A stretch of DNA of 64,000 nt from Rugalucina vietnamica (Eukaryota > Mollusca > Bivalvia > Lucinida > Lucinidae). The notes under the pieces are model-generated. The model was not told the origin of the DNA and searched no databases. It saw nothing but the letters and a program-made list of their open reading frames with translations. This document shows positions 26,835-63,000 of the stretch, piece by piece. The stretch spans positions 26,669,456 to 26,733,455 of the forward strand of contig OZ024875.1 of assembly GCA_964017185.1 (NCBI GenBank), written 5' to 3'. The position numbers and the translations under genes are program-made. The first letter of the stretch is position 1, and every line of letters begins with the position of its first letter.

Positions 26835-28095
26835 TATAACCTGTTAACCGAACTGGGTCCGAACTTGTTAGCCGAGCTGTGTCCGAAATGTAAACCAAAC
26901 TGAGGCCGAACATGTTTACCTAACTGGGGCCGAACCTGTAAACCGAACTGGGGCCGAACCTGTTGACAGGTTCGGCCCCAGTTCGGTAAACATGTTCGGC
27001 CCCAGTTCGGTTAACAGGTTCGGTAACAGTTCGGCCTCAGTTCGGCTAATAGGTTCGGTTTACACGTTCGGACCCAGTTCGGCTAACCGGTTTGGTTAGC
27101 AGGTTCGGCCACAGTTTGGCTAGCAGGTTCGGCCACGGTTCGGTAAGCAGGTTCGGCCAAAGTTCGGTTAGCAGGTTCGGCCACAGTTCGGTTAGCAGGT
27201 TCTGTCATAGTTAGGTCAGCAGGTTCGGCCACAGTTCGGCTAGTTCGGCCACAGTTCGATTAGCTGGTTCGGTCACAGTTCGGTAAGCAGGTTCGGCCAC
27301 AGTTCGGTTAGCAGGTTTGGCCACAGTTCCGTTAGCAGGTTCGGCCACAGTTCCGTTAGCAGGTTCGGCCACAGTTTGGTTAACAGGTTCGGTGCCAGTT
27401 CGGTGAAAGTGTTCGGCCCAAGATCGACTAATAGGTTCGGTCCCAGTTCGGCTAGTTCGGCCACAGTTTGGTTAGCAGGTTCGGCCACAGTTCAATTAGC
27501 AGGTTCGGCCAAAGTTCGGTTGGCAGGTTCGGCCACAGTTCGGTTAGCAGGTTCGGCCACAGTTCGGTTAGCAGGTTCGGCTACAGTTCGGTTAGCAGGT
27601 TCGGCCACAGTTCGGTTAGCAGGTTCGGCCACAGTTCGGTTAGCAGGTTCGGTCACAGTTCGGTTAGCAGGTTCGGTCACAGTTCGGCTAGCAGGTTCGG
27701 CCACAGTTCGGTTAGCAGGTTCGGCCACAGTTCGGTTAGCAGGTTCGGCCACAGTTCAGTTAACAAGTTCGGTGCCAGTTCGGTGAAAGTGTTCGGCCCA
27801 AGATCGGCTAACAGGTTTGGTCCCAGTTCGGCTAGTTCGGCCACAGTTCGGTTAGCATGTTCGGTCACAGTTCGGTTAGCAGGTTCGGCCACAGTTCGGT
27901 TAGCAGGTTAGGCCACAGTTCGGTTAGCAGGTTCGGTCACAGTTCGGTCAGCAGGTTCGGCCACAGTTCGGTTAGCAGGTTCGGTGCCAGTTCGGTGAAA
28001 GTGTTCGGCCCAAGTTCGGCTAACAGGTTCGGTCCCAGTTCGGCTAACACGTTACAGGTTCAGCCTCAGTTCGGTTTATATGTTCGGACCCAGTT
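26835..28095. repeat. 24-bp minisatellite with orientation switch
   Basis: Tandem copies of about GGTTCGGCCACAGTTCGGTT AGCA fill 1.25 kb. At about 26962 (CCTGTTGACAGG) the orientation flips, the left 120 bp reading as the reverse complement. Four higher-order blocks are marked by GGTGCCAGTTCGGTGAAAGT. The long ORFs here are repeat artefacts. Confidence 0.93.
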
Positions 28096-28178
28096 ATTTA
28101 TTTATTTTATTTTATTTTATTTTATTTTATTTTATTTTATTTTATTTTATTTTATTTTATTTATTTATTTATTTATTG
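28095..28178. repeat. (TTTTA)n and (TTTA)n microsatellite
   Basis: A run of TTTTA pentamers followed by TTTA tetramers directly after the minisatellite. Confidence 0.95.
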
Positions 28179-28609
28179 CCGTATTTAGCCGTATACAGTT
28201 TGAATTCCCGAGCTGTCCACGTTTTTCACATGAGATCTTGCAAATAAGAAACTAGTTGCATGAAAATTTGTCTAATGACCCGGAAAATCAATTCACTTAT
28301 GGTCCGTCATTCATTTAAAGAACGTATTTTGTATTTTGATTTTCTTGCTTTGTGTTTATCGGTTTCGTATCAAGTACTCCTTGCGATTATATATAGGCCC
28401 TAAGAATCGCTCTTCCATACATCTACCTCTTATTTTTCCAAATTAAACCGGTATTGATGCTAAATCTCGGTATCGATATATCGGCATTTTCCGTAGGTTC
28501 GGCCCGGAACGTACGGTAATTCCCGTAGGTTCGGTCGGGTAAGTTCGGTAATTTCCGTAGGTTCGGTTTGGTCTGGTTCGGTTACAGGTTTTATACATAA
28601 CCACTCAAA

Positions 28610-38892: not shown

Positions 38893-41800
38893 TTAGTTCT
38901 TAGTTGAATAAGTTCCAAAATTTTGATACAAATATGGAGGGTACTGTAAATGTCTGTAATTATGTGAAATGTACTGGTTGGGAGACATCACTAGCGAATG
39001 CGACGTCGTTGAAGCCGTTTGTTGCATTCCCTGTGCGGTCAGCTGATTATTGTTCTGCATCTGATTGGCTGGCTGTAATCTAGACATGTTCTGATTGGTT
39101 GGATTGTTGTTGGGAGATCCTGGGTAGTTGAAGAATCCCGGCATTCCCTGAGTAGGCGATGACGTCATGAACGGCGCAGTTGGCATGAATCCGTATGGCG
39201 TCATTTGTGGTGGCAGGACTGGCGACATGGACATGAAGTGGCTGTAAGGATTGTTCATGTTGTCGTTCACACGGCGACGCCATCTTGCTCTCTTATTCTG
39301 GAACCAGATCTGAAACACAAAACAACAGCATAATGAAAAATATGAGTCATGGCGGAGAGCAGAAGAGCAGAAACGCACTGACACCAAAATGTTGGAAATA
39401 GCTAAATTTTACAATTGTGGAGAGAAACTATCATCTCAATACAGAACCAGTATTGAAACAGAAACCTTACAGATGGCTTCATAAACATATCATTGGATAC
39501 TCTGGTCGCAGTTGAATTTAGACTAAATTTCATCGTCGACATGGCATTGCGTTAGAAGTCAACCTACGATTATGGCATAGCACAGTGAATTGCTCTAAAC
39601 AGCTTAATAAATGAGCCGTCTCGTGAGAAAACGAACAATGTGGTTTCCGAACAGGTCCGACACAAATCAGGCTGTACAGTCACAGAAGCAGGCTAGACGC
39701 TTGAAATTTCGGATTTAAGAAGAAGATGAAGTGTACTATCCGTGTAGCGAAACCAAAGGCGGTGATCAGCTTCGCGGTTACCGCGAAGCTGATCTGCGTC
39801 TTTGTTTTCGCATATGCAGATTGTTGGTTTTCCCCATGAGGCGGCTCAAATATTCCAGTTGTTCATACCTTTAGTTTGTTTTCCGGGATCCCGAGATCTA
39901 AACTCAGCTGCTCCATCATGTCAGCGTCAGGGTAGGGGTTCTCGTGAAACTGTCGCTCCAGTACCTTCACCTGATCCGGTCTGTAGTTCGTCCGGGCCTT
40001 CTTCTTCACTGGTCCTCCCTCGGGCTCCGGGCTCGTGGTAGACCCACAGACTGAGCCGGGAGATGACGCGCTGCTAGTTGGTGATGGTTTACCGTCGGTG
40101 GACTGCGGGGAGGCTGACCCCCGGGTCGAGATAGAGGAGTCAGTGTTGTTGGGTGCATCACAGCTCCTCAGCAAATCATGGTTCTCGTTTTCTACATCGA
40201 TTAGGTCATCAGAAACTGTGAAAGAAAAACAGTGTAAAAAGGGCTTAGTTACAGGTAATTATACTGAACAAAACTGAAAATGCTACACAGTACACGTATT
40301 CTTACAAATGTTAATCTCAAATTTGATTTTATTGTAAAATACATATAAACATTTCATTCTTTGACTACGGCTTGTTGCATTTTGATTCGTTTCTTTCATG
40401 TCATTTCAGTATCACGTGCAGTAGAAGTCACCAAAAATGGGCGCAGGAAATTAGCTTGTCAAGTGGGGGTTCACGATCTGTAGAAAATGCATGATCAGTT
40501 TTCGGACCCCTTACTTGTCATTAGTTGTCAAAATGCATGTAGCAAGGTTCTGTTTGCTTTCACTGTATCAAATCGAAGCCCAAGTTATAGCCATATAATG
40601 ATATTCTTAAGTGAGTTTGCAATGAATGAAAAACAGAAATTCAAGTTGGAATATAAGTGCCGCGTTTTCACTTTTGTTCTGTATAGAATATACAAATTCA
40701 TATGAGAGAACAAGCTAAAAAATAGTATACCCGAAACATTTTTTCGGAACATTTATATACATGTAAAGGTAAATGTATGCAATGATCAGGAAACGGCACA
40801 ATCAGAAAGAAAGCCTCACTCCAAAAACCGAGATGGGGAAAAAACTGAATTGACAATCGGGTACTTATATTGAGAAAACATATCGTAAGCCGAGTGAGCA
40901 GCTATTTTCCAATTGCCAGCCTCTCAGTTATCCCGAAGGCTTAAACCGATTTCCACGTACCTAACCTCGTCCTAAAACCGAAATGAATAGATGAACCTGT
41001 CTAGTTTGACACAGATTATTTTATTTTCCGCGGCCAGAAATTTAAACTTTGAAATGATCTAACATATTGAATGGCCGTAAAACCCAAATTCACCAAAATA
41101 ATGTGCTTACCGTCAGATGTTGTAGAGTTGTTTCCTTTGGGTGTACTGAAGAGCTCCTGTCGACTTTTACAAATGTAGTGTCCAAGATAATTGACCGCAC
41201 GTGGGCTAGTCCGACCAGCGTTATCGACGTTGTCGGCGAGGAGCTTCGTCACGTTGTGTGTGACACTGCCGGTCCCGGGTAGCACAGGAGAGAGAAACAG
41301 GGATCGAACCTCCTGGTTGTCCTTCCTGACAGGTTGAACTATAGCTGACGTCTTCCTGGGTATGGCGTTGTCATTGAAGCTGAAGATGGGACGGTCTTGA
41401 AGAGGGTGCCTGTCCACCGCAGAATGCATGTTCTAAAGGAATAAAACAAATGAAAGCGTTTTTAGCGTCTTTTAGCACACAGCGCAGGATATTTAATCAA
41501 ACAATGAATCATCTTTGATACATGTAGGCCTACGATAGAAACGAATTTTCAGAGCAGCGAGCAACGGTGTTACCCAGATTTTACTTGAATGCAGGAATGC
41601 AAAGTGAATAAAACTTTGTTCCAGTTGTCTCAAACATTTGCTTAAAAATAAGGTTCATTTTTCCAAGTTTCGATTATCTTATTAAACTTACATAGAGCAG
41701 ATATTTTTTTTTATTCTTTTCATTTTTATATTTTAGAAAGCATTTTTCAGGTAATGAGTTTGAAAATGGCAAAATTGCTAATTCAAAACTGTACGGTGCT

Positions 41801-42005
41801 GAAGTCGTTTCTATAATCATTTAATCTAAATGTCAAATCTCGATTTTCTTGAACATGATTTATTTATTTATTTATTCATTTATTTATTTCAGATGCTTAA
41901 TATAAAAGACGATTTAGAATGACATAGTTAACATTTCAATTTCAATCGTTTCCTATTATCAAGAAACTGAGCAAATAAAGTAAATGGACTTACCGTGTTT
42001 TGCAT
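38893..42005 (-). CDS. PRD-type homeobox gene A (four coding exons, 365 aa)
   Basis: A predicted nuclear DNA-binding transcription factor. Coding exons read 42005..41994, 41432..41111, 40215..39869 and 39309..38893; every junction is GT-AG and the phases (0, 1, 0) keep one frame. The homeodomain is about residues 182-241, with Y8, L16, F20, W48, F49, Q50, N51 and R53 in the expected places; K52 is less usual. The intron between residues 46 and 47 is typical of PRD-class homeoboxes. No paired domain is seen. The region before the homeodomain is Ser/Pro-rich; the C-terminus is rich in Met, Pro, Asn and Gln. A short FSFNDNAI stretch near residues 20-27 is only weakly eh1-like. Helix I loosely recalls NOBOX, but orthology is unproven. 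Gene B at 47194-51893 is a divergently transcribed paralogue. The internal Met at 41429 is an alternative start. The homeobox call is secure; the family is not. Confidence 0.93.
39612..39848. mobile_element. TGAGCC-type TIR element (MITE) in gene A intron 3
   Basis: A full-length ~237-bp copy of the commonest short element of the window. It starts TGAGCCGTCTCGTGAGAAAA and ends with the inverted ATGAGGCGGCTCA. Inside is a hairpin with a TCAGCTTCGCGGTTACCGCG core. It lies 20 bp from the end of gene A exon 3. No ORF. Confidence 0.85.
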
Positions 42006-42095
42006 CGTTGCAGCAGTATCCGTTAACGTCCAAAGAATCGTTTAGCACTATGAAACAAAGAAGTGATTATATGCCCAAACTTCGGGTAATTTTTC

Positions 42096-42103
42096 CTTAT
42101 ATA
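42096..42103 (-). promoter_or_regulatory. TATA box of homeobox gene A
   Basis: TATATAAG reads on the minus strand about 90 bp upstream of the proposed ATG at 42005. A transcription start near 42070 and a ~65-bp 5' UTR are inferred from the usual ~30-bp spacing. The position matches the TATA box of gene B. Confidence 0.7.
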
Positions 42104-42200
42104 GTGACAAAGAATCTGACACTTCTTGAGTTATTCGTTGTTTTATTTCTCCATGTCAGACGGACACACAAACACACAAGAGCCTTTTAAGTGCAATTAA

Positions 42201-42217
42201 ATGATTTGATCTCACTT
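42201..42217 (-). promoter_or_regulatory. Shared promoter element, copy upstream of gene A
   Basis: AAGTGAGATCAAATCAT lies about 100 bp upstream of the gene A TATA box. The promoter of gene B has the same 17-mer with one difference at a similar distance. The adjoining minus-strand sequence contains CAATTAATTGATTGATT, rich in homeodomain-type TAAT/ATTA cores. The binding factor is unknown. Confidence 0.6.
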
Positions 42218-42858
42218 AATCAATCAATTAATTGGTGTTTGCGCGCAAGTTGATCAAACCGTTAAACGTTTTATTCTTATTCTTCGATTGGTCAATTGGC
42301 AACTTAACGGCGCGCATTTGCACGTGCTACCTGTCCGTCACGGGTGATGAGATAATCCGATCAAATGATCAACGATCACTTTCAGTTTCTTGACAGTGAC
42401 ACTGATTTTGTTTGTAACGTTTGGTGTGTCGTCATCATTGCCTCACAATGAAGGTCGTTTAGGGACATTGTTCACCAATGAGGCTGTTTCTTATTTTGCC
42501 AAGTATCTCACAATTTGAGTCTAAATTGACATTAACCATGTTTTCAGTCCATGAAAATAATAAACTTGAATGGGTGAACGAACGGACGGACAAGTTGACA
42601 AACGGACAAACATGATACATTGATAAGAAAGGTCGTAATTACAAAATACTACATGTACTTTCATAAACGGAACTACACTGCCCCCCCCCCCCCCTGAAAA
42701 ATCTATTTAAGTAATGTTGACGTAGTTTTAAAGATAATGATTAAACTGTATGATCCACAGAACCATGTTGTCTCAGCAATGTGTCATTCTTCTGAAGATA
42801 TACCGATCCGGGAATCGAAAGACACTATACGCTTTTCTTGTCTGCTCTGAGGCCTAGC
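42218..42858. other. Distal upstream region of gene A
   Basis: No gene. CAATCAATTAATTGG (42221-42235), two GATTGG/CCAAT-type boxes near 42286 and GCGCGC stretches suggest regulatory DNA up to about 42330. A C-run at 42681-42694 may mark a degenerate repeat. Confidence 0.4.
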
Positions 42859-42870
42859 TTTTTCTGCGTG

Positions 42871-43055
42871 GGGAGCGCGGTGGCGTAGTGGTAGAGCGTC
42901 GGACTCCGAATCAAGAGTTCCTGGTTTCTATCCCTACAGGCGTCACCGTGTTGTGTCCTTGAGCAAGACACATTAACTCCCTACAGTGTTGGTTAAACCC
43001 TGGAAGAGTTGGCTCCACCACGACATGACTGAAAAATTGTTGACAATAAAAACAA
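42871..43055 (+). mobile_element. Complete tRNA-derived SINE (185 bp) with 12-bp duplication
   Basis: The head GCGGTGGCGTAGTGGTAGAG is tRNA-like with an A box; CCTGGTTTCTATCCC is a degraded B box. The body has CCTTGAGCAAGACACATTAA and the 3' end GACATGACTGAAAAATTGTT. TTTTTCTGCGTG flanks both sides (42859-42870, 43056-43067). It is in the intergenic space between the homeobox genes. Confidence 0.88.
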
Positions 43056-43184
43056 TTTTTCTGCGTGAAACAAAAATCAAAGGTCTTTTTTTTTCGGCTA
43101 TTACGCTAACAGAATGTGGTGCGGGGCCGATGTTTTTGTTCTGCTGTTCTGCTATTCTGAGACTACGACATAGCTTCTGAAGGC

Positions 43185-43400
43185 TGAACCGCGTCATGAG
43201 AACCCGATTTATACCTATGCGAAAACAAAGACGCAGATCAGCTGTGCTGTAACTGCACAATGCCTTTGTTTACGCTACATGGATAGTACAATTATTCTTT
43301 TTCGTAAATCCAAAATTTCAAGCTTCTAGCCTGCTTCTGTGACAGCACAAACAGGTTTGTGTCGAAACACCGAAAACTGCTTTTCTGACGTCGTGTCTCA
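43185..43400. mobile_element. Diverged TGAGCC-type TIR element
   Basis: A copy starting near TGAACCGCGTCATGAGAA and ending TTCTGACGTCGTGTCTCA, with the shared AAATTTCAAGCTTCTAGCCT interior. It sits between a SINE and a TTAA-flanked element. Confidence 0.65.
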
Positions 43401-43786
43401 ACTCACAACGGTGGTTAAAGGGGTGCTCACACCATGTAGCGTATAGCGCCAACGTATGCCGACGTGCGAGACATTTTGTCTTAATACGTTGGTGTACGTT
43501 GCATACGTCCGGCATAAGTTATGCATAAATCCAAGAACGTTAACTATCAGTTACTTATAAATACCTTCACATACTTTGTCATCACCAAAGCCCACCTGGA
43601 CGTTTGTTTAGCGTATGAGAAGCGTATGCATAACGCACTACCTACCTAGGAGCAGCGTACTCGGAACGTACGTACGTGCGAAGAACGTACTCAGCGTATG
43701 CGCAACTTACGCGTATTTGATATATATAAATATGGAAGGAATAAGGATTGTTATGATTAAATAGCCACACGGAAGCATCAAAATAG

Positions 43787-43870
43787 AAGAAGAAGAAGAA
43801 GAAGAAGAAGAAGAAGAAGAAGAAGAAGAAGAAGAAAAAGAAGAAGAAGAAGAAGATGAAGCAGAAGAAG
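43787..43870. repeat. (GAA)n microsatellite
   Basis: About 25 GAA units with a few interruptions. Confidence 0.97.
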
Positions 43871-44615
43871 AAACGTTTATTCAAATTCCAAATAATATAC
43901 TCGGCCAAAAACAATATGCACTATTGTGTGTATGGCTATATTGTATTTACTGTTATATCATCGCTTGTTCAGAGAATATTTTTTGTAAGAACTGGATGCC
44001 TTAGATGCTCATATTCAATGGCCCTCTATAAAATTGTCGACATATAAAGTGCCAAAGAATTGTTCACCGTTTCCAAATATGCTTATTACCACATTGAATA
44101 TCAAAGGTAACTGAAAATTTAAGCATATCCACAATATGCCGGCTTTTTTCAGTCACTAAAAATACATGTACTAACGACAAACAAAATTACTGGCAGTGGC
44201 AATTTGTTTGTTTCGATTCTGGTATGCATGGTACATGTAGCTGAGTCACTAAAATGTCAGTATGAATAAGCACGATCCCGCTACGGTTGCGCTACGAATT
44301 AGGCCACGCCCAATAACCACCACGATTCGCCACGAATGTTTTAAACAGTTTAAAACTTCCGTAGCGCTACTGTGGAGTTTCCCGAATCATCACGATTCAT
44401 CAAGATTCACCACGATTTACCACGGTTTTACTACAAATCACCACGGTACACGAAGATTTTTTTTTTAATCGTGGCGAATCGTAGCGGCACCGTAGCCAAA
44501 AAATCGTGAATGTGTAAACAGGCCTTTATATATATGCGAGTTTTCAGCCCCAGTCAATATTTGTTATTGCTCATGATTTTGTAACTTTTGTTAAAAACGA
44601 TATACTACGTAATAA

Positions 44616-44769
44616 TGGTTGGTTGGTTGACTGGGGTTTAACGTCCCACCAACAGCTAAGGACGGAGACGGGACCTCGGTTCATCCGACGGACTGGAGAA
44701 GCCCGGGATCGAACCTGCGACCCCTGGATTACAAGGCGAGTGACATAACCACTGCACCACGGAGGCTTC
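44616..44769 (-). mobile_element. Complete tRNA-derived SINE (154 bp) with 13-bp duplication
   Basis: On the minus strand, GTGGTGCAGTGGTTATGTCA (A box) and GCAGGTTCGATCCCG (B box) are both clear. The tail GTTGGTGGGACGTTAAACCC ends in CAACC repeats. TACTACGTAATAA and TACTAAGTAATAA flank it. Tail fragments of the same SINE are at 6070-6115 and 45790-45840. Confidence 0.9.
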
Positions 44770-45580
44770 TACTAAGTAATAAGAGACGACAAAATGCACC
44801 CTAGCTTCTACTAAGTAATAAGAGACGACAAAATGCACCCTAAGAATCAGATGTGTAAATTTCTTAAGTCATTTTTATTTATTTATTTTTCACTTTGTTT
44901 GACTCACCTTTTCCGACGAACGTCGATTTCGTTTCGAGTTCGTAAGAAGCACCCTGTTTGGAATACGTCATACGTGCGTTGTACATATATACGCTCCTTA
45001 TAAGTCACGAACGTTATATGCTAACACTGGGCGTACGCTGTTATAAGTCATGGTATACCAGGGAGTACGTTATGAATAAGCTACTCATACGTTAGACATA
45101 CGTTCCGAGCGTTAAGCATACGCTTTGTATAAGTTAAGAGAGAGCATTTCCCGTTTTTTAAACATAGAATGTACAGCGTAGAACAACGTACAACAACGTA
45201 CTGGATAATTTTTCATACGCTGCTCATACGTTGGCTAATACGTTGTGGTGTGCGCAGGCCTTAAGATATTGTTCCGCAATTGCACGCAGTAGGAACATGA
45301 AGAAATAAATGACTCAGTATACGATTGTGTCTGTTCTGCCGACCCAGTGAACAATTTAAAGCCATATCGTGACGTAGCGGCAGCTTCATGCATCAGAGGT
45401 AATGTGTCTTGCTCGTGGATATAGTGGTGTTGGGATTCGAGTCCAACGTTCATCTATGCCATTGTCCCCCACTACCCACCCCATTATATGGAAATGAGCA
45501 GAAACCTTGGCAGATGTTTAAAAAAATATGCATTCTATGGTGTAAGTTGAAACCTGGCACATATATCCTGAACTTAGTTT

Positions 45581-46336
45581 CCCAGGGGGGGGGGGTACTC
45601 TCATTTTTTGTGGATACATAGGCGAGGCCCCAGCTTCTACCCCCAAACCCAAAAAATTACTGAGATTTGCTGACCACCCCAAAAAAATACCAGTCCTATC
45701 AGGCATACCCAAAAAAATACTTGAACTTTTAGCTTACCCCAAAAAATTACATGTACATGTATTCGTCTTTTTTATGTTTATCACATCCATATGATCTAAG
45801 CTGTTGGTGGGACGTTAAATCCCAAATCAACCAACCAACAGAACACGTCACAATACAGTTAATATATGTAGGAACTAGGAAGTAAATACCAAGTTGGGTA
45901 AAATTTAAAGATTCTATTTATTCTCAAAGTGTAAGTCTTATGATGGTTTTGATTCCATTTGATTTGCAATCCAAACAACATCGTCATGATCAAGTTTCCA
46001 AAATTTCACCGAGACCAGACATAAGGCATGGTCGCAAACAAAATTGAATCTTAAGGCCTTGTAAAACATAAGTGTAAGCCACTCTTATCTTTATAGAAAT
46101 AAAGAGATTTCCCAAGAAATGTGCAAAACCCAAAAAATTACTTAGAATTATAGATGACCCCAAAAAAATAATTCAGAAAAGGCATGACCCCAAAAAAATA
46201 TCCATAAAAAGCTCACTACCCTAAAAAATAACTAGTTTTTCTGAAAACCCAAAAAAATACGGAAATTCAAAATTTTGACCCCAAAAAAGTCAGCCTCGCC
46301 TATGTATACAGAAAATTTCAGAGTACCCCCCCTGGG
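45581..46336. mobile_element. hAT-like element (756 bp) with CCCCAAAAAAATAC arrays
   Basis: CCCAGGGGGG at the left, CCCCCCTGGG at the right, and CTTAGTTT on both sides as an 8-bp duplication. Both flanks of the interior carry about ten copies of CCCCAAAAAA(A/T)TAC in the same orientation, a subterminal array such as transposases can bind. A SINE tail fragment (45790-45840) lies inside. Confidence 0.85.
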
Positions 46337-46344
46337 CTTAGTTT

Positions 46345-46583
46345 CAGCTTGTCTATTTCTGTAAATGATCAGCTGTATCAAAAATGTGTAGTTTTATTCA
46401 AAAATTATGATGGCATCAAAAATGATCACCATAATGAAATAAAAATGTTATTGTGTGCATTTTGAAGCTGTATATATCCTTTAGGTTGAAAGACTAATGC
46501 TTGAACCGATGTTGCTGAAAAGTGAACTTGTGGCGTTTGGGTTGGTAGATCTAATAAAGATAAAGATATTTTTGTTGTTGTTG

Positions 46584-46628
<45 letters not shown>

Positions 46629-46997
46629 GAGGCTTAACAATTTTTCAGTCATGTCGGGACGGAATTTTGATGACACAACAGGAACATTAGCATTATGCGA
46701 AAGTTCAAGATAAACAATATTTTTAGCTTGAATACTTTTGGAAGGAAACAAAATGTAGATCTACAAATGTGAAAATACAAGAAATAAGAAAGAAAAAGAA
46801 GAAAATGAATGCTTCTCGAAATGTCACTCGTTTCACGGTCGTTAATTATTCAATCGTCTCAATCATCAAATAATTGTACAAACAAACACAAACATTTTGG
46901 CACGCGCGATAGTTCACATGCGACAAAGGTATTGCAGAAAATAATAGACATGGTAAATAGCCAATTAAACAATAATCAATGTCTTGATTGGCTATCA
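46345..46997. other. Distal upstream region of gene B
   Basis: Apart from the microsatellite and SINE tail no repeat or gene is recognised. 46850-46995 is rich in TAAT, ATTA, CAAT and GATTGG cores and probably belongs to the gene B promoter. Confidence 0.4.
46584..46628. repeat. (GT)n microsatellite next to a SINE tail
   Basis: About 22 GT units. On the minus strand they follow GACATGACTGAAAAATTGTT, the 3' end of the SINE type at 42871. Confidence 0.95.
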
Positions 46998-47014
46998 AAG
47001 TGAGATGAAATCAT
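46998..47014 (+). promoter_or_regulatory. Shared promoter element, copy upstream of gene B
   Basis: AAGTGAGATGAAATCAT lies about 92 bp upstream of the gene B TATA box and differs by one base from the gene A copy. It overlaps a TCF-like ATCAAAG, and a CCAAT-type GATTGG sits just upstream. The proposed role as a regulatory site is inferred from conservation between the paralogues. Confidence 0.6.
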
Positions 47015-47105
47015 CAAACTTTACTGATGCCAGGCAACTTTCTTTGACATGAAGAAAAATGAGAAGTGAAGCAGCGAGAAATATCAAAAACTCGGATTTT
47101 CGTAC

Positions 47106-47112
47106 TATAAAG
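47106..47112 (+). promoter_or_regulatory. TATA box of homeobox gene B
   Basis: TATAAAG lies 88 bp upstream of the proposed ATG at 47194, so transcription would start near 47136. The spacing mirrors gene A, which supports both four-codon first exons. Confidence 0.7.
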
Positions 47113-47193
47113 CAAGCTTTTCACCAAAAGTTTTGACATTGAACTTGTTTCGTTCTAAAACAAAGTCATAAACAAGAAAAGAAAGAAATCAGA

Positions 47194-50100
47194 ATGCAAG
47201 AAAAGGTACATATTTTTTATTATTATTATTTTTATAAGAATCTTAATTTTTTTTTTTTAACTTAAGATAGAAATACCCATTGCTATCATTAATTATGAAA
47301 TTATGAAACTTTAGCAAACTGATCTTTTTTAACTGTTGGTTATTGCACGTGAGGCATATTTATTTTGTTGTTTTTCGACTACATGGATCCTGGTTTAGCT
47401 CTTCATGTTGGACCCATCTGGAAACTGTACTTTGTCTTATTCGACAAATGAACACTCATCTTTGTAGATAAAATTACGACTTATTTTGGATTCAGTTGCC
47501 TGCATCTGTTTTTGTAAAGACCGTGAATTGCATGTCATCTTCTTTGTTCTTAACCAAGGTGCTCAAAGAGGTATTTACATATCTCTGAAATAAATTCCAT
47601 TTCCGCTTCATTTCGCTAACTTTTCTTTCTTTTTATTCTCAAGAAATTCAGCCCAGATAGCATCAGAATCCCGCCTCCCTGGCAACACCATGGTTATCAT
47701 CCTGATGACACATGGTCGGCACACGTGCTAGCACCGATAGAGAAAGAGAACCGACCCCTCAAGCCAATCTGTCTCACACCTATACTACCAAGAACCAAGA
47801 ATGGGCTGCACGGAACCAGCTTCACCTCACCCGACTCCCTTCCCGGCCAGCCAGTACAGACCAGCACCCCCGTACAGGCAGGATGTCGTACCAGACTACC
47901 AGGAGCGCAGATGAACTCGGAACTCTCGGCATTTAGACCATGCAAACGCATAGAGACAGAAAATACGCAAACAGGTAAATACTTTGTTACAGAAAATGAT
48001 AAGATACGCGTCCATTAAAAACGAATGTCAGATTATTTGTTTTACAAAGCACAGGGCCACTGCATGAGAAAACCAACAATTTGCATAGGAGAAAACAAAG
48101 GCGCAGATCAGCTTCGCAGTAACTGCGAAGCTTATCAGCGTCTTTGTTTTCGCTGCTCGGATAGTACAATCCTTCTTCTTCAAATGTGCCAACATTTGAC
48201 CACAGATACTTGGGGTTACTGTTTAGATTTTTCAAAAAGCTAATACTTGTATTTTGTTTTTAAAAAAAACTTATACTTATATTTTTTTTCTTCATTTAGC
48301 TTTTCTGCATTAGTCCTGACCTTAAACAATCAGAAAAACATGTCTAGAATACATAAAAAGCATTAGAAATACTGATAAGCAATCACTAATGTAAAGAAAA
48401 ACTTTACATTAGTGATTGCTTATCAGTATTTCTAATGCTTTTTATGTATTCTAGACATGTTTTTCTGATTGTTTAAGGTCAGGACTAATGCAGAAAAGCT
48501 AAATGAAGAAAAAAAATATAAGTATAAGTTTTTTTAAAAAAAAAAAATACAAGTATTAGCTTTTTGAAAAATCTAAACAGTAACCCCAAGTATCTGTGCA
48601 TTTGACATTTCGGAACTTCCGGTTTTTATTTTGTTGAATATCTCGTAAACGGTTGCAGATATTTTCCTAATATTTTATATTTGGATACATATTGATAATA
48701 TGCATTGAATGAGCCATGAAAATTGTCAATCTAAGGAATTTCATTTTTTCACCCCATTTTCTGCACTTTTTCAGAAAATTTTAGTTGTCAGTAAAATTTA
48801 GTGGGTGGGGTAGAACTTGCATATTATACATTTTCAAATAAATTGCACTAGTTCTATGTTTATTTTAGCAGCACTATATGTGTACATTGTCTTCTAAGTC
48901 AGTCTTTCTGTATTTGGTGTGCTAGTTTTAAATTTTTGGGTGGTTTTATGAAATGGGCTTTAAGAAATAAAACTGCCGAAAAAAGGCTGAAAATGGCGAT
49001 TTTCAAGTGATTGGTTCTCTCTTATATTTACACTACCATATATATTTATTTCTTTTATTCGAACAATATTACCAAGTTCTACGTTGTGTGAAAATACAAG
49101 AAACGGTTTGAATCTAAAAATATGGGTTTGGCACATTTTAAAATATTGATTTTTTTCGACTTTTCAAATATGGGGGTAGGGTTGGAAAACGACTTGTAAA
49201 ATTTTGTCATCCACTTCAAGTTGCAAATTTTTCTATGCTTTTGGTCCAAAATAGTCTGCATTACGTAAATATTATGACTTTTGAAAGCTTTCTGGGTGTA
49301 TTTTTGTTCAAGACGGGTATGTTTCAAAGAATTAAAAATTAAATTAATTTGACTAAATTTTAAACATGGTGTTCAGAGGTCTCATTCACAGGCCTGTAGC
49401 TTGAAAAAATGCACACTACCCTATACTTATTTTGTTTTCAAATGTCTTGTATTGTATTTTGGAATCAAGAAAGAGTGGTTAGAAAAAAAGTTTGAATACT
49501 TTTTCATTGGAAGCGAACATCCTTAAATCCAAACATTTCAAGCTTCTAGCCAACCTCTTTGACAGAACAGGCCGGTTTGTAGCAATGTTCGAAGCAATGT
49601 TCCGTTTGTCCCCGCTGTTCATCATCTGCGACTGGTTCCTTAGGCTTGAATAGTGTACTTCTTGATTTTAAAAGTACGTTCCATGACCATTTTCATATTG
49701 GGGAGATACAAGATATGCATATATCTGATGAGGTATTCATTGAACAATCTCTTATATGAAAATGTCATCAAAATGTCTATAAAAAACTTTTTTCCATGTC
49801 AGCACAGGTTTTAAATTATGTTTGATCACAGAACAACCAAATTTTATAAAGGACTGGCACAAATGTTCATGTTGATTAAAATTTCTTGGATACAGGATAT
49901 ACAAGTGAGACTGGCTTACGATATTCCAAAATGATTTTATATGTACTACAGGTGTTTTTTTTTTTTTTTTTTCATTTGCATTGACGTCAGTATTTTCTGT
50001 GATGCATAACTCTGAGAGTTTGAAAATATCTATTTCATATATAAATTTCAGACAACACCCATTATGTTGACGAGGTGCCGACTCAATCTACAAAACCGGC

Positions 50101-51893
50101 ATCACCTGCATCACAAGGGACTAATACGGCACCATCGGTATACTACAGGTCTAGTCCAGAAACTTCCCCATCATGTTCTGAGCGGAAAGATGCTTCTCCA
50201 GAGTCGGGATATTCTTCCAGCACTAGCAGAGACAAGGGTTCCCCGGGGTCCATCTCTGACCCGAGGTCTAGTCCGGGGTCCGTCTCTGACCCGAGGTCTA
50301 GTCCGGGGTCCGTCTCTGACCCGAGGTCAAGCCCGGAGCAAGATAGCCAGACTACAAAGAAACTACGACGAGCAACTTACAAACCTGAACAGATAACGAC
50401 GCTAGAAAGTGAGTTTCAATTGAACCCCTACCCAGATGCAGAAAGATTAGAAGAGCTAAGCAGGGAAATCCGCATACCAGAGAGCAAACTTAGGGTGAGT
50501 AGCATTTCAAAGCATTTTCTTATCCTTCACTTTTCGAAACCAGTTTTCTGTGAAGCTTTGCTTAATGTTTGAGTAAAAATTCAGAGATTTACAATCGTGT
50601 ATTAGCGTTGAAGTAGCTTTCGCAGATGAGTAGACCGTCGAAGCGACTCGAACTGATGCTGTAATAGGTGCTTTAAATTTCTGACATTTCTCACAAAGAA
50701 TAAAATAAAGATAGAGATATTACATGCATTTCGACAGCAAAAGGCCAAACGTCCAACAAACAAGCTGATTTGCAAAGATCTTTGTGGCTCGGGAATATGT
50801 ATAACAAAAAATTCTAGCTTCTAGTTTATCATGTTTATACCCATATGTTTCCATATATTTTCGTTGTCTGAAAATTGCTCTTCAATGTCAATACTCCTGT
50901 TGCAAAACAAACAAACAATCAGACAAAAATGTGTACAATAAGCAATGCAAAATATCTTCTAGTTTTAGCTCTTATGTTATTGTCAAGATGATGCTTAATT
51001 GAGCCGCCACATGGGAAAACCAACAATCTACCTAGGCGAAAACAAAGGCGCAGATCAGCTTCGCGGTAACCGCGAAGCTGATCAGCGCCTTTGTTATCGC
51101 CACTCGGATAGTACAATTACTCCTCTACTTAACTCCAAAATTTCAAGCTTCTAGCTCTTTTCTGTGACTGTACAGGTCGGTTTGTGTCGGACCTGGTCGG
51201 AAACCACATTGTTGGTTTTCCCACGAGACGGCTCAATTATTAATACTTATCCAATTTCAGATCTGGTTCCAGAACAAGAGAGCAAGATGGCGTCGCCGTG
51301 TGAACAACAACAAGAACAACCCGTACAATTACTCCGCGCCTTCCGTTTCCGCTGTTCCAGCTATGGCACCATCGCCCTACGGAATGGTGCAACAGACACC
51401 ATACATGATACCGCATCCGTCTAACATGATGCATCCGTCCTTCAACATGATGCAGCAGACACAGCCTACAATACTGCAGGCACATTACTTGATGCAACAG
51501 ACATCGAACATGGTGAATCCGTCATATAACACAATGCAGCGCTCACCAGACATTATGCAGCCAGACATGATGTACCCGTTTACGTCAGCGCAGATGACAC
51601 AAAAAGTGCTACACACACCACAACTTACAGCAAACATTTCACCACCAATGATGCGACCGGCCAATCAAACACAGACACAGTTTATGCCATCACAACAGAA
51701 TAACTCTGGGTTAGTGAAAACTAAAGACATCTTCAGGCCATACAATGACCCGCCCGTACAGAGCCAGGGTAATTTTAGAGTGTCAGATTCGTATCCGTCG
51801 ACAACAGCGTCTCAACTGTTAACGGTGGAAATTCCTTCGTATGGTTTGGGTATGCCCTTTTCACAGTTCTCTCAAACACCAAATATGTACTGA
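47194..51893 (+). CDS. PRD-type homeobox gene B, paralogue of gene A (four coding exons, 472 aa)
   Basis: A predicted nuclear transcription factor. Coding exons are 47194..47205, 47644..47974, 50052..50494 and 51261..51893, all GT-AG, with phases 0, 1, 0 as in gene A. The homeodomain is about residues 217-276, again with Y8, W48, Q50, N51, K52 and R53 and an intron after residue 46. Exon 4 starts with the same 13 residues as in gene A (IWFQNKRARWRRR). Exon 2 aligns with gene A through KENRP..KPICLTPILPRT against KDNQE..RSLFLSPVLPGT, supporting the frame. Just before the homeodomain a 10-residue unit (GSVSDPRSSP-like) occurs three times. The long C-terminus is Met/Pro/Gln/Asn-rich. The first exon (MQEK) was chosen by analogy with gene A (MQNT), and a TATA box lies about 85 bp upstream. 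Intron 2 holds a giant palindrome, and intron 3 a short TIR element next to the acceptor. Confidence 0.92.
48055..48180. mobile_element. Truncated TGAGCC-type TIR element in gene B intron 2
   Basis: Contains the left end (CATGAGAAAACCAACAATTT) and the full AGCTTCGCAGTAACTGCGAA hairpin, then breaks off at about 48180. The giant palindrome begins some 20 bp later. Confidence 0.7.
48201..48598. repeat. Near-perfect ~400-bp palindrome in gene B intron 2
   Basis: The left arm 48201-48396 and right arm 48402-48598 are inverted copies around a 5-base AAAAA centre. I see only a substitution and length changes in homopolymer runs. The arms contain no recognisable gene. Transcribed in the pre-mRNA they would fold into a ~195-bp double-stranded stem. 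A fold-back assembly artefact is possible. Confidence 0.9.
49520..49605. mobile_element. Partial TGAGCC-type element in gene B intron 2
   Basis: A fragment matching the family interior (CATTTCAAGCTTCTAGCC, ACAGGCCGGTTTGT). Both ends are missing. Confidence 0.45.
50246..50335 (+). repeat. In-frame 30-bp tandem triplication in gene B exon 3
   Basis: Three nearly identical 30-bp units, each encoding about GS(I/V)SDPRSSP, lie just before the homeodomain. Gene A lacks them. They probably arose by replication slippage and may vary in copy number. Confidence 0.85.
51000..51235. mobile_element. TGAGCC-type TIR element (MITE) in gene B intron 3
   Basis: A full-length ~236-bp copy with TGAGCCGCC and GGCTCA ends and the internal CGCGGTAACCGCG hairpin. 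It ends 25 bp before exon 4, so the branch point for the homeodomain-completing exon must lie in or beside the element. Confidence 0.85.
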
Positions 51894-53702: not shown

Positions 53703-53916
53703 TGAGCCGCCTCATGGGAAAACCAACAATCTGCATAGGCGAAAACAAAGACGCAGATCAGCTTCGCGCCTTTGTTTTCGTTACTAGGATAGTACAATTC
53801 CTCTACTTTCTAAATCCAAAATTTCAAGCCTCTAACCATCTTCTGTGACTGTAAAGCCTGGTTTGTGTCCGACCTGTTCGGAAACCACATTGTTGGTTTT
53901 CCCACGAGGTGGCTCA
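53703..53916. mobile_element. TGAGCC-type TIR element at the end of the zinc-finger gene
   Basis: A ~214-bp copy whose internal hairpin is shortened. Read on the minus strand, its first three bases (TGA of TGAGCC) are the stop codon of the zinc-finger ORF. Confidence 0.85.
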
Positions 53917-55311
53917 TATTTTGTTGTGAACACGCATATGGGTTCTGAGAGTGTCTTTCCGTGCAAATGATTTCCCACAGGTTTCACAGCTGTGTTGTTT
54001 AACCCCAGTATGTGTAAGCAGATGCGATGTAAGAGTACTTTTCTGTGTGAACGAATCTCCGCAAGTCATACATTTATATGGTTTTTCTCCGGTGTGTACA
54101 AGCTTATGTGATGAAAGGTGACTTGAGTATGTAAATGATTTGCCACAAGTTACACATGAGTAGGGTCTATCTCCACTATGAATACGCATATGTGCTTTCA
54201 GATTACACAGTCTACTGAACGATTTTTCACAAGTTTTACATTTAAATGGTCTTTCTCCTGTGTGAACACGTTTATGATCTGTCAGAGAGCAGTTATGTCT
54301 AAAGGAGACGCCACAAGTCTCACACCTATAGGGTTTATCTCCCTTGTGTATAAGCATATGCTTTGTTAGATGCGATAGCTCCCTGAATAACTTTCCACAA
54401 GTTCCACATTTATATTGCTTTTCTCCACTGTGTATAAGCATATGCTTTGTAAGAGTGCTTTTGTGTGTGAACGACTTTTTACATATACCACATGCATGCG
54501 ATTTATTTCCTATGTGAATCAGAATATGCGATTTAAGATAAGTTTTTTGTGCGAATGTTTTCCCACACGTGTCACATTTATGAGGTTTATCTCCAATGTG
54601 AATGTGTAAATGCTTTTTAAGATCGCCTTTGAATGTGAATAATTTTCCACAAAGCTCACAATTATATGGTTTGTCGCCAATGTGAATAAGTTCATGTTGT
54701 TTTAGACTGTCTTTTGTATTAAATGATTTACCACAATTTTTGCAATATGATTTGTCTCCAACGTGAATCAGCATATGTTTTGTGACATGACTTTTCTGTT
54801 TAAATGACGAGCAACAAAGGTCACATGAATATGGTCTGCTGTTACTGTGAATAATCATGTGTGCTAACAGAATTTTTTTTAGTGCAAACGATTTTCCACA
54901 CGTTTTACATGTGTGTGGTTTATCTCCGGTGTGAATGAGCATATGCTGTGTTAGATAGCTTAGACTGACAAACGATTTTTCACAAATTGCACAACTATGT
55001 GGTTCATCTCCAGTATGAGCAAGCATATGGGTGTTAAGCGTTTCTTTAGTCTTGTAAGATTTCTCACACATTCCACAACTATAACGCTTATCACTAATAT
55101 GGAAAAGCATATGTTTTTTAAGATAACTGTGACGCGAGAAAAATTTCCCACATATTTTGCAACCATTTTTTTCAAGCTCCATGTGTGCGAGAGTTTCACA
55201 AATATAGGATTTTCGCCAGTGTGAATAACAATACGCCTCTAATGAACAATATTTCACCAAGTCCCCAAGTGTGTATACAGTCTCTGATCTGTGTAAATTT
55301 TCTAGAACTTA
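53914..55311 (-). CDS. C2H2 zinc-finger protein with 15 tandem fingers
   Basis: A predicted nuclear nucleic-acid-binding protein, most likely a transcriptional regulator. The open frame runs from a stop at about 55311 to TGA at 53916. Fifteen Kruppel-type fingers (CX2CX12HX3H) follow one another with TGEKP-like linkers, several written (I/T)GDKP. Upstream of finger 1 is a cysteine/histidine-containing stretch around CSLEAYCYSHWRKSYICETL that looks like eroded finger sequence. No ATG occurs before MELEKNGC at about 55182, so translation starts there or an upstream exon supplies the start; possible acceptors lie near 55285-55310. No KRAB, BTB or SCAN domain is visible. The stop codon comes from the inserted element at 53703-53916, so the original C-terminus may have been longer. 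Confidence 0.88.
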
Positions 55312-56692: not shown

Positions 56693-56913
56693 TGGACAGA
56701 AGTATTTTCAATGGTTTATGCTAAATTGCTGTAATGGAACGTTGCGTTAGGAACGTAATGTAAACTTAACGTTTTTATAACGTGACTGTTCCGTTGCTAG
56801 GATTTTTTTAGATATTCGCCATTACCCACAGAACGTCATGTAGCATTGTTATTAAAATTGAATATTGGAACTCATATCGTTTTATTTCCATAACCGGGAA
56901 AATCGTCAGAACA
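56693..56913 (+). repeat. 5' LTR of the BEL/Pao-type element
   Basis: 221 bp, TGGACAGAAGT...CGTCAGAACA. Identical to the 3' LTR, and preceded by AACAC. Confidence 0.93.
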
Positions 56914-56974
56914 TCTGGTAGCAGAGCGAGGTTTCAAACAGTTCATAGAGACAGAAGCTCGAAGAGAATCAGAA

Positions 56975-58867
56975 ATGACATCGCCAAAATTTGAAGACAT
57001 TTATAGACGCCATTCCTCTATCGACGTCGCCATGCATGAAGCAGAGTTAAGAAAGGACGGAGCAAAGGCGAAGGCGAACTTTACACGATCGCGCAATACT
57101 TTGTTGTTGTTAGCTCAATTTCAGGACTTGCAGAATCATAGAGGAGTGCTGGATGCTTGTCTCAACATGGATACTTGTATGGAAAACGCGATGGGAGTTT
57201 TATCCAAATGCGCATCGTTTTATATCGACAATAAGCTGTTGCAAGAAGGCATCTGTATTGTTCGTGAAATGGAAAAAATAGAGACAGATTTTTATGCAGC
57301 ATACGAGATTGCATGGGCGTATCTCGACTCTCGGTTTTCATCAAATCAGACAGTAAACAAGGTAGGAAATTTGGATCAAATACACACCAGTGAATCTATT
57401 CCTAGGACAGTTAACTGCATTTCGCCCCACCCGTCTGGCCAGGCAATTCAAACAAAAATACACACCAGAATAAAACCGGGATGTGAACCCGTCGAACACA
57501 GCACAACGAAGCATTGTGATACAGCGGAGCAGTATCGACCACAAAATAATGACAACCGAAAGTCACCAAATCAAAACATAGCACATTGTCTGACAGATAG
57601 CTGCGCGACCCCTAGCATTGGTCATGACTTGTGGATGCAACTCGAACGAGTAAAGATCCCAATATTTTCAGGAGACAAAAGAAATTATCCTAGATGGAAA
57701 GCTGCTTTTCAGGCATGCATAGATAATGCACCAGTTACGCCAGAATATAAAATGCTACAGTTACGGCAATACGTTTCTGGAGAGGCACTTAAAGTAATAG
57801 AAAACTTAGGACACTCGTCATTCGCATATGAGGCTGCCAAGGACCGTTTGGAAAGAAAGTATGGCGGCAAGCGCCGCAAAGTAGCAATTTTCCTGGAAGA
57901 TTTGGAGCGGTTCAAACAGATACGATCAGACAGCGCCGAAGAACTAGAACAATTCGCGGACTTGTTAGATTTGGCAGTAATTAATCTCAAAGAAGCAGGT
58001 GAACATCAAGATCTTGGAGACGGTTCCATGTATCTACAACTACAAAGAAAATTGCCACAGTCTCTACTGGCGAGATACCACCGCTGGGTTTTTGAAAACG
58101 ACGTGACGGCATCGGTAATAGCATTAAAGACATGGGTAACCGAAGAATCCCGTTTTCAGACAATCGCTTCTGAGACAGTCCATGGATTAACTAGCCGAGC
58201 CGGTAGTAATTTGTCAACTCCATCGACACCAAATAGTGCCGAACAGAGAACATTTTTTATAAACCAAAGAATAAGTCATCCCCTGCTGATACAATCATGC
58301 CAGCTATGTAAGGAGCAACACAGAATATGGGAATGTCAGGCGTTTTTACATAAAGAAGTATCGGAACGCTGGAATATAGCGAAACGATTCCAGCTTTGCT
58401 ATCGCTGCCTAGCAGAAGGACATGAGGGAAAATCATGCCGTAGAACAAGACGATGTGGTAAGGATGGCTGCCATAAGATACACCACAGACTGCTTCATGT
58501 GACAACGTGTATGTCGGAGGTGTCCGAACAAAAAATGAGAAGTCACACGGAACAGTCTCAGGAACGTCTAGGGCCAGTGTCAACATGCTCGGATCGCCTC
58601 ACCTTCGAAACGGAGGGGAACCGAATAACAGAACATGGTAATTACTTTGCCAGCACATATTTAACCGGTGGTCATATGAATAGTTATTACATGAGCCACG
58701 ATTCGAGCTCAGAGCAACGGGATAATTTAACACAAAACCCCAGACCTGGAATTACTATCGAGGGACAAACACTATCGAAAATAGGTAGAGGACAGCTAAA
58801 ATGGGAAACACCGAGGCCGAAAAGACGTTCGTTTGACATGGAGGGGGAAGTAGTACTCGCCAATTGA
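56975..58867 (+). CDS. BEL/Pao-type Gag protein (630 aa)
   Basis: The only ORF of the LTR element; it would form the particle that packages retroelement RNA. Residues ~225-400 resemble the DUF1759 domain of BEL/Pao Gag (IPIFSGDKRNYPRWKAAF, then LERKYGGKRRKVA). Residues ~441-500 carry Cys/His knuckles: a CX2CX3HX4C and a CX2CX4HX4C (CYRCLAEGHEGKSC), followed by a Cys/His-rich tail (CGKDGCHKIHHRLLH). The ATG lies 61 bp after the LTR, just downstream of the primer-binding site. In autonomous elements protease and polymerase would follow; here the frame ends at 58867. The frame is intact, consistent with the identical LTRs. Confidence 0.88.
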   Translation: MTSPKFEDIYRRHSSIDVAMHEAELRKDGAKAKANFTRSRNTLLLLAQFQDLQNHRGVLDACLNMDTCMENAMGVLSKCASFYIDNKLLQEGICIVREMEKIETDFYAAYEIAWAYLDSRFSSNQTVNKVGNLDQIHTSESIPRTVNCISPHPSGQAIQTKIHTRIKPGCEPVEHSTTKHCDTAEQYRPQNNDNRKSPNQNIAHCLTDSCATPSIGHDLWMQLERVKIPIFSGDKRNYPRWKAAFQACIDNAPVTPEYKMLQLRQYVSGEALKVIENLGHSSFAYEAAKDRLERKYGGKRRKVAIFLEDLERFKQIRSDSAEELEQFADLLDLAVINLKEAGEHQDLGDGSMYLQLQRKLPQSLLARYHRWVFENDVTASVIALKTWVTEESRFQTIASETVHGLTSRAGSNLSTPSTPNSAEQRTFFINQRISHPLLIQSCQLCKEQHRIWECQAFLHKEVSERWNIAKRFQLCYRCLAEGHEGKSCRRTRRCGKDGCHKIHHRLLHVTTCMSEVSEQKMRSHTEQSQERLGPVSTCSDRLTFETEGNRITEHGNYFASTYLTGGHMNSYYMSHDSSSEQRDNLTQNPRPGITIEGQTLSKIGRGQLKWETPRPKRRSFDMEGEVVLAN

Positions 58868-60057: not shown

Positions 60058-63000
60058 TCAATCTGGTTGTGTATGTGTTTGTTGAGTGTTGGTAGTTATT
60101 CTGTTGGATATTTTCTCCTTGACAAGTCTATATATCCGCCGATTACAAACAAATGCGATCATTATAAACACCCCTTGTCCAGCATTAAGCAGGATAAACT
60201 GATATTCTAAAACATCATTCTTTATCAAAAGGTGGAGATACCCGATTAACCAAGTTAATCCAGTAAGTGTCGAAAGACGAACATAAATTCCAAAATAATT
60301 TCTTTCGTGGCCTAACTTAGCTGCATTTACTCTGTTTTGGCCTATTCTGATAACCACATAACCGAAAAGCACAAAGTTAGTGATAATAGTGAGCAAAGAT
60401 GGGATGATAAAAGTGATCAACTGCATACGGGTACTGGACAAGTAACAGATAATCCCGCCATAGCCGAAGTCCTGACCATTGCTGAGTAAAACTGAAGCAA
60501 TCATGTTGATAACGACAAACAATACAGAGGCCACGAATATGTAGAGAAGTCGTTTTATGACGCCCTTCCATAGAAAGTCGGTCGACAACTTATGAATATT
60601 TTTGAAGATTCGGAACATATCGTAAGAACATACATTCATAGCAAACATTACTGAAAGCCAGAGAAAGTGACAAACTGCACCAATTACAACACACGACCAA
60701 ACGGGTCCATCTGTTTGACCCGCTCCAAACTGGTAACTTGTCTGGGCTAACAACAGAGTCACACACAAAACGATTGTGTTGATGCAAGGTTGCGAATGCA
60801 ATTCGGTCAAAGAAACATAAATTATAATGGTAACCAACAGACACACAACTGAAAGACAAACACACACTAACGCAAACATTTCTTTCGCCCCTTTTGCTAG
60901 TTCAATTTTTGCTGTGCTTCTTATCGGCATCGCATCATAGATTCTTTTATAATCCGAGACGCAAAGAAAAAGACGACTGGGCCCATATTTAAATTCCCAG
61001 GCATTGAAAATTTGATATAGAAACGATTCATTAATAATCAAGAATCCGTTTCTGATTTCAAACTGCAAATCTCTGTGTCTAAGTTCAATAAATGGACAAA
61101 CATCTAGCTTGCTAAAAGGGAGGGATCCCAAACACCTAAACCAGGGCAATCCTAATATACGGTTTACAATAGACACTCGTTCAAGGATATCATACGAAAT
61201 CGTATTATCGTTTGGGATCCGTACAGTCCTCACAGACGTATCGTCAAACAGAGCTAAACTATATGAAACGATTTCAGAACCAAATGTTACGTTGTGATCG
61301 TTTACGTCTATCACTAAACTCTTGTCTTCGAAAGTGCCTATTATTTTAGAGAAAATATCTATCCTTTCACGATCGAGAAAATAGAACTTTGTCTGGAACA
61401 TCAGGTAAACTTGGTCCATCTCGGATGAGGGTTGTTTTGCAAAAAGAAAGAACTCTTCCAAAAGGTCGTTCAGATCTTTGAGCAACGCTCGCATCTCTAG
61501 TTGAAGCTCTCGCTGGAACTCGCTGTTTGTCACGTCATCAAAATGGAAGGATATTTTGTCTGACACGGGTGTAAGATTGAAAAATATCGTAATGCAGTTT
61601 CCATTATCGTGTGATACATTATAAGAACGACATTGTCCGTCTTCAAGGTGAGATCTACTGTCGCAGAGTATATCTCGACATTTCATCTAGAAATGGAAAT
61701 AAAAGGCATTTAACCCTCAAGTTAACAGTGAAATCACGAGGCACTCGTCTTACTGGCATGCGTTTGTATTTGATTGACATTGGATTTATATGGGCGTATA
61801 ACGACACTGGTCTGCAATTCCTGTATTTCTGATCACCTTGTGCAGGACAGAAATCAAAGTTACCATCAATTCACTGAGTTATACCTAAGGCATATCCTGT
61901 GGAAGCAGTAGGATTTGCAGTAGGCATTACGAAAACTTACCCATGCAATATACAGAGATTTTTAAAGTTGGAAAAATGAAAATTTTCAGTAGAAAATTTT
62001 GTTACTGAAAATTTTGATATTTTCCTTATTTTTGCTCAAAATATAGATTTGTGGGTACACCGCCGAGGTGGTTCTAATGAGTACCCACAATCTATGTTTA
62101 GGAGCAAAAATAAGAAATTGGTATAATCCCTGCATACCCCAGCTTTGCTACATAAAAGTGGGGTTCAATGGGGTATACATTACAATTTACAGGAACATGC
62201 TTTCCTGATGTTTGTCCGCATGTTATGTAATTTCATTAAAATATATTTAATTTATAATTAGAAATCGACGAGATTTTGTTACGTGACCGAATGTCCAAAG
62301 TATGTAAGAAAAAAAAACCCAGTTCTTCGAAATAATCATTGGCATGACGTATTGGAACTCTTAGAAATGTACACCAGTATTTTCTTACCAGTTTTCTATC
62401 TTCAAACTGTGTAGCTTTACATGCCAGGTCTGCAGTACCAGTTGCCTTGGTATTGATAGCACTCAAGTCTAGGATGGCTGCAAAAGGCGGAACATATGAT
62501 GCTCCGGCCCCTTGATTTGGGTCGCGACATTCCCACTCTTCGCTGGGCAAGATACCGTTTGTATTACATAACCAGCAGAAGTAATTCTTGTATGTTGTGT
62601 TAAAAGCATCAACATAAGAGTTACACGCCTTATCAACAGTTTCATTGTACTGCATCCAAAGTCCCGTAACATTACACTCTGAAATTGTGTAAAATTGTTC
62701 GGTACAAGGTTCAGTGTACGTTTTAAAACTCCCGCCTCCACCATAAGGGCTTCTGAAGAATATATTACACCTGTCCTCTTTAATCTTTTGTAGCAAATTT
62801 TCTGCTGATGGAAACGGATACATAGGCTCGTAACAAAAGATTTCCAATCGCCAGGTAATCGGACGCATTTCATCGCTTATGCCGTTGCAGTTAGCACAAA
62901 ATCTGTTGCGATAATGTTTTCCATGGTAGTAAACAGGGACAAGGAAGTCAATCGTGCCACCTGATTCAGGATTTTCGCAGAGTTCTCTTTCTTCGTCGGT

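Follow-up and report, generated by a model that had tools for sequence, protein, structure and literature searches.

Paps et al. (2015) described lophotrochozoan-specific PRD clades I-VI, and among the novel homeobox genes of the oyster, expression peaks early or late (PMC5322547). In mammals, the ETCHbox genes show lineage-specific gain and loss, and two of them, TPRX1 and TPRX2, have undergone repeated gene conversion, mainly in the homeobox region (PMC8208926). Some duplicated SPILE (spiralian TALE) genes are expressed in particular early blastomeres of the mussel (PMC8524836). The two genes described here, A and B, are like the SPILE genes in being homeobox duplicates in a bivalve; SPILE genes are spiralian-restricted and differ in belonging to the TALE class and in having known embryonic expression (PMC8524836). 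We found neither this pair nor its codon mosaic described in the accessible parts of the literature searched, which took in few subscription papers and included PMC5322547, PMC6118893, PMC8208926, PMC7566022, and PMC8524836.

The pair lies in a 64,000-nt window of the Rugalucina vietnamica genome, the window being the whole stretch of DNA that was analysed. Gene A (minus strand, 42005-38893) and gene B (plus strand, 47194-51893) are arranged head to head, with 5.2 kb between their start codons (Table 1). The model of each gene has four coding exons, introns in phases 0-1-0, GT/AG splice sites, and a last intron after homeodomain residue 46; reading frames are open over 366 codons in A and 473 in B, stop codons included. 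The original prediction of a divergent homeobox pair ~5.2 kb apart with this exon layout was checked base by base and is correct. Given the head-to-head layout, the stretch between the start codons is possibly a regulatory region common to both genes. The weakest part of the model is exon 1 of A, a prediction from an in-frame ATG, a donor site, and the MQxx start of some relatives; of the three in-frame ATG-plus-donor candidates within 6 kb upstream of exon 2, it is the only one with an MQ start. Relatives begin with MQEK in Mytilus (P0016 and P0037-P0040) and with MQVK or MQIK in scallops, and others differ.

Table 1. Features of the A/B locus (positions are those of the window)
Feature	Position	Strand	Remarks
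A putative coding exon 1 (MQNT)	41994..42005	-	donor GTAAGT, located by scan
A exon 2	41111..41432	-	RKTSAIVQP and SPVLPGTGSVTHN motifs
A exon 3	39869..40215	-	homeodomain residues 1-46
A exon 4	38893..39309	-	homeodomain residues 47-60 and C-terminal part, including stop
A arm of 73-nt stretch (93% identical, inverted, to B)	39243..39315	-	exon 4 start
Intergenic stretch between A and B start codons	42006..47193	.	head-to-head layout
B putative coding exon 1 (MQEK)	47194..47205	+	same first four residues as Mytilus P0016, P0037-P0040
B exon 2	47644..47974	+	EKENRPLKPICLTPILPRT motif
B exon 3	50052..50494	+	homeodomain residues 1-46
B exon 4	51261..51893	+	homeodomain residues 47-60 and C-terminal part, including stop
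B arm of 73-nt stretch	51255..51327	+	exon 4 start

Repeats and other open frames were also recorded in the window. Intron 3 of both genes contains a copy of a short repeat (39604-39852 and 50996-51243, 87% alike) that is dispersed and has a palindromic core, and further copies are found near 43253 and 48056. The intron 3 copies look like separate insertions of one common element; one old transposon insertion shared by the two introns was rejected because the offsets differ (16 nt past exon 3 of A, 17 nt before exon 4 of B). Intron 2 of B has a near-perfect inverted repeat (48252-48546; 145-nt arms, 99%, 5-nt spacer). A long C2H2 zinc-finger open frame adjoins B (53914-55308, minus strand). 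Other frames include one with DUF1759 (56894-58864), which we take to be a domain of BEL/Pao-type retroelements, a secretin-type seven-transmembrane receptor frame (60061-61686, minus strand), and a long frame with no Pfam match (62239-63192). A repetitive stretch at 27244-28255 has long overlapping open frames made of FGHSSVSR-like units, and an Rfam search over the whole window gave no match.

Pfam identified a homeodomain (PF00046) in A (E = 3.8e-21) and B (E = 1.1e-18, 67 bits) and no paired domain in either. With a PRD-type homeodomain, no paired box, and an intron between residues 46 and 47, both genes are PRD-like. An intron at this position is common in the PRD class and not exclusive to it, and many PRD-type homeodomain exons of the same genome stop at the same place. 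Among single-domain relatives with solved structures, Pax6 and goosecoid score best for both genes, together with aristaless for A; higher scores for DUX4 and an engrailed fusion come from summing two domains. The A and B homeodomains are identical at 37 of 60 residues, with 23/46 before the intron and 14/14 after it. Exon 4 had been predicted to start identically in both genes, which was confirmed, with an identical run of 15 residues (IWFQNKRARWRRRVN) in place of the 13 first proposed. None of 2000 shuffles aligned as well as A and B did in exon 2, or in exon 4 from homeodomain residue 60 onward; likeness in exon 3 upstream of the homeodomain is weak (34/2000 shuffles as good). This pre-homeodomain part of exon 3 in B includes a 30-bp coding repeat in about three copies (50243-50336, SSPGSVSDPR).

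We searched the source genome (1.09 Gb, 47 contigs) with the homeodomain of A and obtained 84 matches (E up to 1), of which A ranked first and B third by E-value. The match ahead of B was a full-length ordinary homeodomain with 35% identity. The two B exons had 47% and 83% identity, the other matches had 26-46%, and no third close copy was found with this query, family-level identity being confined to the exons of A and B. A third, B-like copy in this genome is unlikely. A homeodomain scan of the genome gave at least 138 matches (150 scored candidates of 220). From the same genome, 18 PRD-type homeodomains were given presumptive names (Shox, Otp, Otx, and others) by sequence likeness, and six more were left without a name.

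Proteins related to the pair were identified across bivalves. A protein search with A returned 30 matches, comprising 22 from named bivalves, one from Haliotis, five without a species name (one of which, P0029, is engrailed-like), and two mosquito engrailed proteins. The bivalves were Mercenaria, Ruditapes, Mactra, Mya, Sinanodonta, Potamilus, Pinctada, Saccostrea, Mytilus, Dreissena, and Solemya. The same search with B returned only five matches, and a 13-row profile returned 39, of which 10 are rows of the profile itself: 30 from named bivalves, one from Lottia, three without a species name, and one each from amphioxus, a fungus, a fish, an insect, and a rotifer. Public names for the family proteins conflict (orthopedia-like, DLL-1-like, ISX-like, and pituitary homeobox-like). 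A PVLPGT-like motif is present in A, B, and eight relatives among the returned proteins, plus one mosquito engrailed. In a full-length tree of A, B, and 31 proteins, single-genus groups with 97 to 100% bootstrap were formed by two of three Mercenaria copies, four from Mya, five from Dreissena, three from Solemya, and three of four Mytilus rows (from three species). Because copies group by genus, the family has expanded repeatedly in bivalves, apparently through independent expansions in these five sampled genera besides the source lineage. Several copies from one species, seemingly on the same contig, suggest that some are in gene clusters.

A homeodomain tree was constructed from 67 rows and 60 columns using 35 of the 50 returned proteins and 24 of 60 loci from the source genome. 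Close copies, fragments, and engrailed, fish, fungal, and rotifer proteins were left out, and the human reference rows were HESX1, NOBOX, ISX, PROP1, PAX3, and PAX6. The 35 family rows, including A and B, were separated from 31 other rows of PRD type (24 from the source genome, six human, and one insect) with 98/91 support. With residues 1-46 only, this split had 99/77, and 99/87 without amphioxus and HESX1, and it was present in 100% of 200 bootstrap trees for each tree. Beyond it, the 60 columns resolve little, and the bootstrap had not stabilised. One divergent exon for a PRD-type homeodomain, located 5.5 Mb from the pair on its contig (L041, G000:C7:32191330), falls on the canonical side of the 67-row tree. 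HESX1, NOBOX, and other canonical PRD families were considered for the pair, and the trees are against them; when B is taken alone, neither NOBOX (p 0.462) nor HESX1 (p 0.076) is rejected by AU tests.

These placements support the predicted paralogous PRD-type pair and its divergence, as does the genome search. By the trees, A is a firm member of the family and B a well-supported one. Every family row that has a species name comes from a bivalve or one of two gastropods, save for the amphioxus protein (P0044), which groups on the side of the family in the 67-row tree; the family without it has 81/88 support. We retain the predicted single family apart from canonical PRD, NOBOX, and HESX1 sequences, and the claim that it is lophotrochozoan-only is weakened because of the amphioxus protein. 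A and B belong to one PRD-like family of many bivalves and two gastropods, and possibly of amphioxus too. P0044, which adjoins the family and is annotated as Pax-6-like, has no paired domain listed; it is possibly an Aprd gene.

Several results bear on whether A and B are sister genes. A, B, and P0019, a sequence without a species name, form a group in the 67-row tree (96/87). In the full-length tree, both genes group with heterodont clams (96/97) and outside a Mactra-Ruditapes-Mercenaria-Mya-Dreissena group (84/94, not starred). A sister relation is likely on this evidence and is open to doubt because one of the two trees built on 46 columns groups B with Saccostrea (96/85) and not with A. 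B may instead be an older paralog, its orthologs having been lost, or having escaped detection, in most clams; the pair would then be the remnant of an ancestral tandem cluster. Residues 1-46 of the B homeodomain are nearest to Saccostrea (59%, compared with 50% to A), those of A are nearest to P0019 (82%), and AU tests on the homeodomain data rejected none of five alternative groupings (p 0.076 to 0.599), including B with oysters (p 0.51) and B outside the family (p 0.377). However, B is nested with heterodonts when full-length proteins are used, and the two Saccostrea proteins lack its exon 2 motifs. The KENxxxK motif in exon 2 of B, which is KDNxxxR in A, was otherwise present in only five of the 50 returned proteins, four of them heterodont (P0001-P0004) and one without a species name (P0009). 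We consider the older-paralog placement unlikely, and the inverted duplication originally proposed for A and B is supported.

The two genes differ in rate. End branches are 0.59 for B and 0.02 for A in the 67-row tree and 1.73 and 0.37 in the full-length tree; by this measure, A is the conserved member and B the fast one. The description of both as fast-evolving consequently applies mainly to B, whereas A has kept motifs common to other bivalves. The long branch of B could also be produced by a decaying pseudogene, but 472 codons are open over four exons with GT/AG sites, the homeodomain scores as a good Pfam match, and likeness to A is kept in exon 2 and the C-terminal part. The pseudogene explanation is very improbable and was set aside on the intact four-exon frame.

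Codon comparisons revealed a mosaic that the original prediction had missed: strong divergence in exon 3 vs near-identity at the codon level at the start of exon 4. At identical degenerate residues, the same codon is used at 8/23 positions in the exon 3 part of the homeodomain and at 11/12 positions in residues 47-60 (Fisher p 0.0016), and at the exon 4 start the codons match for five arginines, with three kinds of codon among them. Likeness begins at the splice acceptor and fades after ~23 codons, and the adjoining intron is unlike. As a control, we compared residues 47-59 over 66 pairs of 12 other PRD-type genes from the same genome, most of which have the same splice position. These had 194 of 593 codons in common (33%), and the best pair reached 0.78; A and B share 10/11, like two near-identical duplicate pairs (10/11 and 11/11). 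Exon 3 therefore looks near saturation and the exon 4 start does not. By these counts, A-B codons in the exon 3 part of the homeodomain are as unlike as in unrelated genes.

Short gene conversion would best explain the exon 4 start, and the main rival is selection on the DNA itself, for example on a splicing enhancer by the acceptor. Selection on nucleotides would fit a tract of only 73 nt that starts at the acceptor beside an unlike intron. However, only a third of such codons are common to the control genes despite their mostly shared splice position, and codon bias alone would hardly produce agreement among arginine codons of three kinds. We regard nucleotide-level selection in place of conversion as possible but doubtful. 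Our tentative reading, at somewhat less than even odds in its full form, is that most of each gene drifted to near saturation while short conversion between the mirror-image copies kept the base-reading end alike, so that one DNA-reading specificity was held and the remainder could change, in a family that expanded independently in bivalve lineages.

As a whole, the locus is best explained as an inverted-duplicate pair of a molluscan PRD-like family whose products would bind similar DNA sites and whose exon 4 starts have been kept alike, a reading to which we assign a probability of roughly 0.77. A and B would have arisen by inverted duplication within a family repeatedly duplicated in bivalves, and from their domain both are predicted to be sequence-specific transcription factors with glutamine at homeodomain position 50. 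Residues R5, I47, Q50, N51, and A54, which we take to be base contacts, are the same in A and B, so the two proteins are predicted to read very similar TAAT-type sites. Four of these residues (47, 50, 51, and 54) are encoded by the exon 4 start, which conversion between the copies or selection on nucleotides may have kept alike. The divergence of B would lie mainly in regions that decide partners and regulation, leaving the two factors with differing partner or activation regions.

The described systems resemble this pair in part. Like A and B, the clades of Paps et al. include mollusc PRD-class homeodomains outside canonical families, with no paired domain save in one oyster case (PMC5322547). 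The SPQQVRS motif of clade VI resembles the (S/T)P(S/Q)QVQ(A/T) of the A/B family, and assignment to that clade would be a guess (PMC5322547). By analogy with such systems, expression of A and B in the early embryo is possible. TPRX1 and TPRX2 of placental mammals are likewise fast PRD-class duplicates, but the ETCHbox genes derive from CRX and are mammal-only, and their conversion spans a longer 5' region, whereas in A and B it would not reach beyond the start of the last exon (PMC8208926). If the conversion reading is true, the pair is a small natural system for testing how regulators retain a single DNA-binding specificity after duplication as their other parts diverge. This fast-changing homeobox family, found in many bivalves, is a molluscan parallel to the mammalian ETCHbox genes.
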